Assembly (NCBI GenBank): GCA_029059965.1
Contig: JAIDUY010000412.1
Span: 1 to 10,049, forward strand
Length of the DNA: 10,049 nt
DNA from: Muribaculaceae bacterium
Lineage (GTDB): Bacteria; Bacteroidota; Bacteroidia; Bacteroidales; Muribaculaceae
Reading direction: 5' to 3'
This document shows, piece by piece, positions 7,555 to 10,049 of the stretch. Positions within the stretch are counted from its first letter, which is position 1; every line of letters begins with the position of its first letter. The translations under genes and the position numbers were made by a program. The notes beneath the pieces were generated by a model. That model saw nothing but the letters and a program-made list of their open reading frames with translations, was not told the DNA's origin and made no database searches.

Positions 7555-7620
7555 TCGCCTCAACGTGCCCCGTCGCAACATCGCGACAAAATTGCCGGCA
7601 ACGTGGCCTCCGGCAGGAGG
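7555..7620 (+). repeat. 66-68 bp repeat unit, copy 1
   Basis: Starts TCGCCTCAACGTGCCCCGTC, continues through a small GTCGC...GCGAC hairpin and ACAAAATTGCCGG, and ends in a degenerate GGCCTCC hairpin. It matches 7751-7818 with only two substitutions and two single-base indels. A partial, more diverged version of the ATTGCCGG...GGCGTCCGGCAAGG part occurs at about 153-191. Confidence 0.8.
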
Positions 7621-7621
7621 A

Positions 7622-7644
7622 GCGGCGGAGCCGCGATGTTGTGT
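7622..7644 (+). repeat. GCGGC hairpin followed by GATGTTGTGT
   Basis: GCGGC-gga-GCCGC (7622-7634) is immediately followed by GATGTTGTGT (7635-7644). The same 10-nt tail follows a different hairpin at 7700-7722. Confidence 0.6.
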
Positions 7645-7647
7645 TTA

Positions 7648-7678
7648 ACCCCATGCGCAGCGCAGCGGAGCATGGGGT
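7648..7678 (+). repeat. Hairpin with 9-bp stem and 13-nt loop GCAGCGCAGCGGA
   Basis: The stem ACCCCATGC (7648-7656) pairs perfectly with GCATGGGGT (7670-7678). The 13-nt loop GCAGCGCAGCGGA (7657-7669) is identical to the loop of the unrelated-stem hairpin at 7833-7867 and nearly identical to that at 205-239. Confidence 0.75.
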
Positions 7679-7699
7679 ATGGCAGCCACCAAGGCCGGA

Positions 7700-7722
7700 G
7701 CCTCGAAGAGGCGATGTTGTGT
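7700..7722 (+). repeat. GCCTC hairpin followed by GATGTTGTGT
   Basis: GCCTC-gaa-GAGGC (7700-7712) is immediately followed by GATGTTGTGT (7713-7722), the same tail as at 7635-7644 but with a different stem. Confidence 0.6.
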
Positions 7723-7750
7723 GGAATGCCAACAAGGACGCCGATAGCCT

Positions 7751-7818
7751 TCGCCTCAGCGTGCCCCGTCGCAACATTGCGACAAAATTGCCGGCCAACG
7801 TGGCCTCCGGCAAGGAGG
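7751..7818 (+). repeat. 66-68 bp repeat unit, copy 2
   Basis: Near-identical to 7555-7620. The internal hairpin is better formed here: GTCGCA-acat-TGCGAC. The unit ends within the intact GGCCTCCggcaaGGAGGCC hairpin (7802-7820), which also begins the 119-bp composite repeat. Confidence 0.8.
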
Positions 7819-7920
7819 CCGATTTATCGTAACACGGTACACCGCAGCGCAGCGGAGGTGTGCCGTGACCTCACCCCTCCCCTCAACGTGGCGTCCGGCA
7901 AGGACGCCGACTTACGTTCC
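7802..7920 (+). repeat. 119-bp composite hairpin repeat, copy 2
   Basis: Same order and length as 173-291: hairpin GGCCTCCggcaaGGAGGCC (7802-7820), hairpin with stem CACGGTACACC/GGTGTGCCGTG and 13-nt loop (7833-7867), then hairpin GGCGTCCggcaaGGACGCC (7890-7908) and CTTACGTTCC. The first hairpin differs from copy 1 by a paired G-to-C and C-to-G swap that preserves the stem. Confidence 0.8.
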
Positions 7921-8069: not shown

Positions 8070-9722
8070 ATGGAAAACAACGACAAAGCCCTTAGGCCGG
8101 GCACAGTACTACAAGGCAAACGCACATACCGCATCGAGCGCATGCTCGGAGCCGGCGGTTTCGGCATCACATATCTCGCCTCCTGCGATGTTGTGGTCGA
8201 CGGTCTGCGCATGGAGGGCCTTGTCGCCATCAAGGAGCACTTTATGAGCGACCATTGCAACCGCGGCGGCGACGCCACATCCGTCGTCTGCCCCGGCACC
8301 GATGCCTCGCAGGCTCTCGTTGCCTGCAGCCTCAAGGACTTCGTCGCCGAGGCCGGACGCCTCAAGGAATACGGCTCCAACCACTCCAGCATCGTCAAGG
8401 TCAACGAAATATTCGAGGCCAACGGCACCGCATACTACGTCATGGAGTACCTCAAGGGGCAGAGTCTGTCCGACTATATCCGTGCCAAGGGTGCCCTCGG
8501 CGAGGACGAAATCCGTGCGCTGGTCTATCCCGTTGTCGACGCCGCGGCCTACCTCCACGGCAAGCGCGTCACCCACCTCGACATCAAGCCCGGAAACATC
8601 ATGCTCGCCGCCAAGCCCGACGGCACCGTCCGCCCCGTCCTCATCGACTTCGGCCTCAGCAAGCACTATAACGCCGACGGCTCCGCCACCTCGACCGTCA
8701 ACACCATGGCCTGCTCCGACGGCTTCGCCCCGCTGGAGCAGTACAAGGGCATCCGCACCTTCAGTCCCGCCGCCGACGTCTACGCCCTCGGCGCCACGCT
8801 CTACACAGCCGCCACGGGCCACAACCCCGCCACGGCAGGCGAATTTCCCTTCGGCGAACCCGCAGCCACCATCGCCGCCCTGCCCCTGAGCGAACGGCTC
8901 CGCACAGCCATGACCCGCGCCATGGCCGACCGCGCCGCCGAACGCTATCCCGATGCCGGCGCCCTCCTCGCCGCCCTCGGCGGCAGCGCAAGCGTCGGCA
9001 CCATCCCCCTCCCCAAACCCGCCGACAGCACCAAGCCCTTGCCCAAGGCCACACCGACGCCGGAGCCGACACCCTCCGCCCCCTCCACGCGCCCGAACCG
9101 CAAAGGCCTGATTATCGGCGCCGCCATCGCCGCAGTAGTCATCATTCTGCTCTCGGGCTTAGGAATCTCATCGTACATAGATTATCGCCAAGAGCGCGAA
9201 CGTCAAGAGCTGGCAGCCGCCCCCCGCGAAAGAATGAGGCAATATGCAACGCCCCATAATCTCGACCTTGCTGTTCGCGGAGCTAATGGCCAGACCTACT
9301 ATTTCAACCAGAACAACTGGCAGAGTCTTATGCAACCCGGCGATGAGAAGCTTGGCGTGGTGATAATCAAGGACGGCCAGCGATTCATTCTCGCCCTCGA
9401 AGACCTTGCCGGAGGTCAGAAAATGAACTGGAACAATGCCATGAGCCGCTATGGCAACCGCCTGCCCACAAAAGAGCAAGGCGAGGCATGGGTAAGTCAG
9501 CGCGATGCTGTCCGTGATGCCGTCCGTGCCTATGGCGGTCATCATCCAAGTCCATTGGACCAAGATTCGCGTGGCAATTATTACTGGTATTGGACGAAAA
9601 CGGAAGATGATTCTTCCTACGCGTGGGGCGTCAATAGTTATTACAGTTACGTCTACACCTACAGCAAGCCAAATACCTACAGGGTTCGCGCAGTGGCCCC
9701 GGTGCCGTCGTCGGCGATATAG
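8070..9722 (+). CDS. Membrane-anchored Ser/Thr protein kinase with C-terminal C-type-lectin/DUF1566-like domain
   Basis: The product has 550 residues. The Hanks-type kinase domain (about 18-305) shows the Gly loop GAGGFG (27-32), VAIK Lys55, catalytic loop HLDIKPGN (169-176; Asp171, Asn176), DFG at 193-195, an APLEQ segment (220-224) and Asp236. HLD instead of HRD makes it a non-RD kinase. A Pro/Thr-rich linker (312-342), one membrane helix (about 346-369) and a charged Arg/Glu segment (370-393) follow. Residues about 395-550 resemble the DUF1566/C-type-lectin fold common in Bacteroidales: MNWNNAMSRYGNRLPTKEQ (452-470), YYWYWTKTE (504-512), YAWGVN (517-522), YRVRAVAPV (537-545). The kinase should face the cytoplasm and the lectin domain the periplasm. 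The final segment resembles a DGR variable region. ATG at 8070 was chosen because the promoter lies between it and the upstream in-frame start at 7941, and the intervening 43 codons have no kinase character. GC content falls from about 68% (8521-8580) to about 44% (9571-9680). The ligand and the phosphorylated target are unknown. Confidence 0.92.
   Translation: MENNDKALRPGTVLQGKRTYRIERMLGAGGFGITYLASCDVVVDGLRMEGLVAIKEHFMSDHCNRGGDATSVVCPGTDASQALVACSLKDFVAEAGRLKEYGSNHSSIVKVNEIFEANGTAYYVMEYLKGQSLSDYIRAKGALGEDEIRALVYPVVDAAAYLHGKRVTHLDIKPGNIMLAAKPDGTVRPVLIDFGLSKHYNADGSATSTVNTMACSDGFAPLEQYKGIRTFSPAADVYALGATLYTAATGHNPATAGEFPFGEPAATIAALPLSERLRTAMTRAMADRAAERYPDAGALLAALGGSASVGTIPLPKPADSTKPLPKATPTPEPTPSAPSTRPNRKGLIIGAAIAAVVIILLSGLGISSYIDYRQERERQELAAAPRERMRQYATPHNLDLAVRGANGQTYYFNQNNWQSLMQPGDEKLGVVIIKDGQRFILALEDLAGGQKMNWNNAMSRYGNRLPTKEQGEAWVSQRDAVRDAVRAYGGHHPSPLDQDSRGNYYWYWTKTEDDSSYAWGVNSYYSYVYTYSKPNTYRVRAVAPVPSSAI
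9579..9719 (+). other. Candidate DGR variable region (VR) at the 3' end of the kinase gene
   Basis: Codons 504-537 are rich in Tyr, Ser, Asp, Asn and Thr. Of 20 candidate variable codons (513-517, 520, 522-527, 529-532, 534-537), 19 end in T or C, and Ser is written both as TCY and AGY, as expected if AAY template codons were mutated at adenines. Fixed positions AWxVN, K533 and RVRAVA match the scaffold of known lectin-fold DGR targets. The GC-rich end (9681-9719) could be the initiation-of-homology segment. No template repeat or reverse transcriptase is in the window, so this is an inference from pattern. Confidence 0.5.
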
Positions 9723-9753
9723 ACCCTTTCATACTTCAAACTTATTGCGCAGT

Positions 9754-9791: not shown

Positions 9792-9944
9792 ATTGTAGGG
9801 ATGCACCCCGGTGCATCCGCTTCCGTCAATAATTCCGTCAATAATGCACACGATGGACGCACCCATGTCGCACGGCGGATGCACAATGTCGCACGCGGAT
9901 GCACAATGTCGCACGGCGGATGCACCGGGGTGCATCCCTACAAT
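9792..9944. repeat. Inverted-repeat-bounded intergenic element (right copy)
   Basis: A perfect 29-bp inverted repeat (9792-9820 and 9916-9944) bounds 95 bp. The outer ends read ATTGTAGGGA and TCCCTACAAT and each arm is itself a hairpin (GATGCACC/GGTGCATC). Outer ends and orientation match the element at 93-325, but the palindromic core differs (GATGCACC here, GACGCTCG there). The interior holds short direct repeats rather than the GGCGTCC hairpins. Confidence 0.75.
9821..9925 (+). repeat. Short direct repeats inside the right inverted-repeat element
   Basis: TTCCGTCAATAA is tandemly duplicated at 9821-9832 and 9833-9844. A 20-21 bp unit beginning ATGTCGCACG and ending GGATGCAC(A) occurs at 9865-9885, 9886-9905 (one G shorter) and 9906-9925, the last running into the right arm of the inverted repeat. 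Confidence 0.85.
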
Positions 9945-10030
9945 TCGTTGCGGCATCATTTCCGCCGCCCGCGCCGCTCCGCGACTAAGGCGACAGCACC
10001 ACACATCCCAAGAGCATTGCGCATCAACGT

Positions 10031-10049
10031 GGCCTCCGGCAAGGAGGCC
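10031..10049 (+). repeat. GGCCTCC hairpin copy at the right edge
   Basis: GGCCTCCggcaaGGAGGCC, preceded by CAACGT as in the copies at 7605 and 7802. It is identical to the 7802-7820 hairpin and ends exactly at the window edge, so a longer composite repeat probably continues to the right. Confidence 0.8.

Follow-up and report, generated by a model that had tools for sequence, protein, structure and literature searches.

Temperate-phage retroelements probably rewrite in trans the variable region that ends a kinase gene of a Muribaculaceae bacterium

Kinase gene and predicted domains

The question raised by this locus is whether the end of a bacterial kinase gene is the target of a diversity-generating retroelement (DGR) and, if so, where the reverse transcriptase (RT) that acts on it is encoded. 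The window, meaning the whole 10,049-nucleotide stretch of contig JAIDUY010000412.1 that was analysed, ends with a Hanks-type kinase of 550 residues. This Ser/Thr protein kinase gene with a C-terminal variable domain occupies 8070-9722 on the forward strand, on which its parts described below also lie; its ORF (Pkinase 106 bits) has the same start as the database copy P0001, and its C-terminus reads ...AWGVNSYYSYVYTYSKPNTYRVRAVAPVPSSAI up to the stop codon. The Pkinase profile match covers residues 89-255 (8334-8834), with the sequence motifs AIKEHF, HLDIKPGN, and DFG close by. A membrane helix is predicted from hydropathy at residues 346-366 (9105-9167), where the structural model has a helix spanning residues 345-383. 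The C-terminal variable-protein domain follows at 9249-9719, and the variable region (VR) lies at the kinase's C-terminus. By profile the domain is only Lcl_C-like, its 21.5 bits lying below the cut-off of 34.9, and a homologous phage VR protein scores 36.3 bits, above that cut-off. A C-type-lectin fold is suspected for the domain. The matches listed in a structure search with the full kinase model were all kinases, a model of the C-terminal domain alone was useless as evidence on the fold, and a profile search of solved structures gave a single weak match across the VR (8q4e, HbP1, E 0.0011).

Many PADLOC matches of the kinase are to defence kinases (PD-T4-6 models) and span the kinase domain; they show no defence role. 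The contig looks chromosomal because apt, mnmG, and ybeY are among the genes upstream of the kinase in the window. No conserved neighbourhood of the kinase was seen in the regions checked, and the window's neighbour genes were not found near other copies.

The variable region and a phage template repeat

The earlier note had proposed a DGR variable region at 9579-9719 from a run in which 19 of 20 candidate codons were NNY. The run is real, and our recount gives 17 of 18, since counting starts elsewhere, from a boundary resembling the template repeat (TR) to AGG, with GCG, TGG, AAG, and AGG excluded. By itself the NNY count is weak evidence for a DGR variable region. The 17/18 compares with an NNY share of 69% in the rest of the kinase gene (p = 0.012), and the comparison with 121 upstream codons of the same domain gives p = 0.003; where a residue can be encoded by either NNY or NNR, however, NNY makes up 8/9 in the VR against 77% elsewhere (p = 0.35). 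As judged from sequence comparison, the DGR reading is lifted above chance by the match to a phage TR and by an inverted codon-position pattern.

A TR-like pattern matched four viral contigs, and through it a TR was found on viral contig L063, which reads SSNAWNVNMNNGNVNNNNKTNTNRVRAVAPVPSSA. This TR adjoins an RT (PHROG E 4.5e-46), an Avd (E 9.4e-22), and a 262-residue protein ending in a VR; other genes of the contig are, as we label them from sequence, portal and tail genes. The near-repeat beside an RT and an avd-like gene for which the earlier note suggested a search was not found in the 83%-complete genome of the window itself and is present on this phage contig. The VR of the window is co-linear with the L063 TR from TTCTTCC through GCGA (9611-9717), as judged from the TR alignment and the mismatch and codon counts. 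The place named earlier was essentially right, and the VR proper is narrower, because nothing in the TR corresponds to the bases immediately before it. Over the 107-base alignment the final 39 bases (9679-9717) are identical in all 39 positions, forming a 3' constant part that is likely the homing site. Mismatches fall at 13/33 adenines and 4/64 other bases (p = 1.1e-4), so that the differences concentrate at template adenines, as had been anticipated. The four non-adenine mismatches to this best TR are confined to two codons, and because of them the L063 TR may not be the exact donor of the window: a template variant may have escaped the search, or the VR may have drifted. When two phage VRs were compared with their own TRs, differences were located at 16/32 and 14/31 adenines and at zero other bases.

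The phage VR of L063 (L063:11637-11740) has a one-codon deletion, and a widespread host allele (P0053-P0072) is missing the same codon; both read MnnGV and not MnnGNV, perhaps owing to a TR variant. At L209:2950-3060 the TR itself (SNAWYVHLNLGPVYTYYKTNTF) is adenine-poor and seems to have been diversified, as though by overwriting of the template. Three kinds of candidate TR were set aside: L065, one of the four viral contigs matched, and five genome contig matches, all assigned to another DGR by their translated ends, and L138, a chance match of 22 bases.

Location of the RT, Avd, and TR

The end of the kinase gene is, in our judgement, a DGR variable region that is probably rewritten in trans by the RT, Avd, and TR of temperate-phage retroelements, which would alter the predicted sensing by the kinase. 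All three components are present on phage contigs. They were not found in the same genome as the VR: the window's assembly (545 contigs, 83% complete, 6% contamination) contains no RVT_1 match, RT match, or TR-like repeat. The earlier view that the RT acts from outside the window is borne out to this extent. RVT_1 searches of the window's own genome, the genus, and the family were dropped as strong negatives against a resident DGR, because the RVT_1 profile gives the phage RT only 23 bits, below its cut-off. A search of 397 family genomes with the phage RT gave no match in the 49 genomes of the genus or in G069 or G229, and relatives at 35-44% identity in 15 genomes. A DNA search of the window's assembly for a TR found none, returning one further VR (contig C105, 78%) and short matches of 14-20 bases. 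Pattern searches found only VRs, in G001, G010, and G023, with skeleton patterns that would miss the TR type of the G010a and G010b copies and probably that of G069.

RTs of this kind were found on viral contigs L063, L155 and L156 (93%), and L064 and L066 (60-62%), with a further relative on L209. A tyrosine integrase is present on three of the five RT contigs searched (L064, L155, and L066) and was not found on L063 or L156. Relatives of the L064 portal occur in 10/49 genus genomes, and the eight genus regions examined around them gave no RT or Avd match. These eight prophage regions without a cassette count against the trans reading, as do the window's four non-adenine mismatches, the stable alleles described below, the absence of a conserved kinase neighbourhood in the regions checked, and the blindness of the TR searches to some TR types. 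Eight RT-bearing regions from other family genomes carry RTs at 30-36% identity, the three inspected gene by gene (L194-L196) looking phage-like by eye, and no host kinase match was found in the eight. The protein database holds many RTs at 55-93% identity from contigs of unknown kind. The few that are named comprise four from Duncaniella, Paramuribaculum, or Muribaculaceae and one from Lachnospiraceae, which suggests Muribaculaceae as the family of these DGR RTs. No assembly that holds the RT, the TR, and a host VR together was found. A tblastn search with the domain against 50,697 annotated phage records gave no match and peptide patterns in IMG/VR gave no confirmed relative; both searches missed L063, which is present there, and are no evidence of absence.

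The alternative that best survives these results is a resident chromosomal or plasmid DGR, missing from the draft assemblies, that diversifies the kinases, the phage DGRs being merely its relatives. We regard it as unlikely. The six assemblies with such VRs are all somewhat incomplete (83-99%), the database RTs come from contigs of unknown kind, and the cyanobacterial and Thiohalocapsa DGRs are described as hitting remote targets in their own genomes (PMC7517822, PMC10907252). The phage RT, however, went unmatched in all six assemblies in the same search that detected relatives at 35-44% identity in 15 other genomes, and each cassette whose neighbours were inspected at the sequence level lies on a phage contig, the source being a viral collection.

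Variation among relatives and the ends of the VR

The protein database search yielded 114 relatives of the kinase, of which 104 were usable. One cluster comprises 63 kinases (single linkage at 98% over the non-VR part, with a lowest pair of 95.5%) and contains 19 VR strings in about ten groups. Two of its members, P0019 and P0028, differ at 13/26 VR residues and at 2/536 elsewhere, and P0003, 92% identical to the window protein, differs from it at 13/20 positions inside the VR and 35/533 outside. Diversification of the kinase VR is well supported by these data, which are at the protein level or from one genome per species. Adenine-directed differences from a real TR, together with relatives that vary mainly in the VR, support the earlier claim that the kinase gene is a DGR target. 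Two findings had been named that would speak against that claim: lack of an RT and TR, which is what the incomplete assembly presents, and identical codons across relatives, where the codons instead vary. A constantly active element is argued against by a single VR string that is present in 147 contigs and by the VR of G001, which recurs unchanged in G379. The latter lies inside 3,033 identical bases shared by contigs G001:C35 and G379:C45, of assemblies assigned to two genera, perhaps through cross-binning or one contig binned twice.

TR signatures are legible in 43/120 RT ORFs, many of which start inside the TR, and a VR signature is legible in 93/114 host proteins, giving 15 signatures. An exact RT-ORF counterpart exists for 83 of these 93 proteins (5/15 signatures), 64 of them sharing one signature. 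The signature of RT ORF P0155, RVRVVAPVSVSSA, also closes G010a and G010b, two copies truncated where their contigs stop.

Past GCGA, the stop codon and the bases that follow (9718-9736) are common to host and phage VRs and absent from the TRs, which diverge from the VRs directly after GCGA. In most VRs this non-coding flank is ACCCTTTnAyACTT-like, and it may serve as a target signal. Over the 36 bases preceding the block, host genes match phage VR genes at 9-25 positions and TRs at 6-17. This pattern of ends fits copying limited to the TR plus a shared target signal. The flank common to host and phage VRs would also be expected if host genes had acquired finished VRs through homologous recombination with phage VR genes or among themselves, with no retrohoming, and the several copies in G010, some at contig ends, point the same way. 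We nevertheless find such recombination improbable, a little more so than a resident DGR: similarity rises at the TR boundary, with the low upstream counts just given, and many donors would be needed for at least ten VR groups in one kinase cluster.

Codon positions in host copies of the domain

The domain was found by protein search in 10/49 genus genomes, with five places in the window's assembly and seven in G010, and by profile search in 26/397 family genomes. A CsgG-like protein (G000e) and a PEGA protein (G023b) are among the non-kinase carriers. Eleven copies sharing a DNA skeleton were compared, comprising nine of 19 copies plus those of G229 and G069; the other ten of the 19, which depart from the pattern, were excluded, and G343a gave no match when tested against the TRs. 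Changes in the 11 copies are mostly at positions 1 and 2 of the template AAY codons. At the twelve AAY codons the pairwise difference amounts to 0.711 at position 1, 0.600 at position 2, and 0.197 at position 3, with pyrimidines at 131/132 third bases; the corresponding values at 33 variable, gap-free upstream codons of the same genes are 0.641, 0.557, and 0.668. Pooled synonymous mismatch is 0.578 (1275/2205) upstream and only 0.310 (285/920) across the VR and 3' end. Adenine bias is present in each of the 11 host VRs relative to the best of four TRs (p 6.5e-7 to 0.0031), a choice of TR that favours this result. With one fixed TR, 144/264 of the first and second bases of AAY codons are mismatched, against 16/132 of the third bases (p = 3e-17, from related and hence non-independent sequences); the window alone gives 11/24 and 0/12. 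A reading with no DGR, in which a lectin-like binding surface came under ordinary selection to vary, is already disfavoured by this codon-position test and highly improbable, since third positions hold constant where the first two vary, which is not so in variable upstream codons, and since 39 identical bases and a non-coding flank are common with phage DNA, even though the NNY count of the window by itself barely exceeds background.

Two copies differ in arrangement. That of G023a (L019, G023:C59) has an in-frame TGA just past VAPVP, making the protein a few residues shorter, and contig C191 of the window's assembly (L026/L034) carries two domain copies in tandem, the database protein P0002 (748 aa) ending with the second.

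Proposed mechanism and relation to known systems

For the rewriting of the kinase VR by temperate-phage DGRs, the step in trans is one that we infer. A temperate phage would enter or lysogenise the cell and supply the RT, Avd, and TR; the phage RT would reverse-transcribe the TR, making errors at adenines, and the resulting cDNA would replace the VR of the phage gene. The same cDNA would also replace the VRs of host sensors, because the ends of these VRs match. Useful sensors would then be retained, which would explain both the widespread alleles and the genomes without an RT. The C-terminal domain of the kinase is predicted to be a lectin-like ligand sensor outside the membrane, with the variable residues as its predicted binding face, and ligand binding outside is predicted to control the kinase and to be passed on as phosphorylation inside. 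In a broader form, to which we give an even chance, temperate phages may be a shared mutation engine whose DGRs diversify a phage protein together with host sensors (kinase, CsgG-like, and PEGA proteins) that acquired phage VR ends and the target flank, forming an adaptive sensor repertoire.

Publications already describe kinases as remote DGR targets, targets hit in trans inside a single genome, and phage DGRs that are active in lysogens. The hankyphage DGRs are described as diversifying the phage's own tail fibre in lysogens (PMC12135933). In hankyphage and the other Bacteroidales phage DGRs (Bacteroides uniformis F2, F4, and Bacuni_F1) the DGR sits on a phage, as here. Their known target is a phage gene, whereas here host genes bear matching VRs. 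Hankyphage is a transposable phage; three of the five contigs searched here carry a tyrosine integrase instead, and we do not class these phages as hankyphages. The RTs of F2, F4, and Bacuni_F1 are 32-34% identical to our phage RT, which shares <60% identity with all RTs in named phage records. The cyanobacterial Ser/Thr kinase-CLec proteins are reported to join a kinase to a C-terminal variable lectin-like domain, with the RT remote (PMC7517822), an arrangement like the one found here; there RT and targets share one genome, whereas here, in another bacterial group, the RT was found on phage contigs only. For the DGRs of Thiohalocapsa PB-PSB1, a distant TR is described that matches its targets at non-adenine sites, with a kinase among the target architectures (PMC10907252); that trans action is inside one bacterial genome, and here we propose it from a phage. 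By its own account, a global DGR survey is blind to remote targets (PMC8144416). The passages seen of two reviews (PMC8867640, PMC10053308) do not mention host genes as targets of phage DGRs, a term search for this in the first hankyphage paper (PMC6199706) had no match, and none of the literature titles and abstract starts found describes the action of a phage DGR on a gene of the host chromosome.

If phage DGRs do rewrite host genes, the known tally of hypermutated bacterial proteins is too low, phages are donors of targeted host evolution, and hypervariable sensors are possible in genomes without any RT. The ligand of the kinase, lysogeny as a diversification switch, and the flank past the stop as a target signal are testable questions.

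Intergenic repeats in the window

On the downstream side of the kinase gene lies a perfect inverted repeat of 29 nt (9792-9820 and 9916-9944), which surrounds short 20-nt tandem repeats. A similar 28-nt pair is located at 93-120 and 298-325 and a 35-nt tandem repeat at 1-70, and dispersed intergenic repeats around GTGGCSTCCGGCAAGGASGCC occur at 145-203, 250-291, 7578-7920, and 10003-10049.
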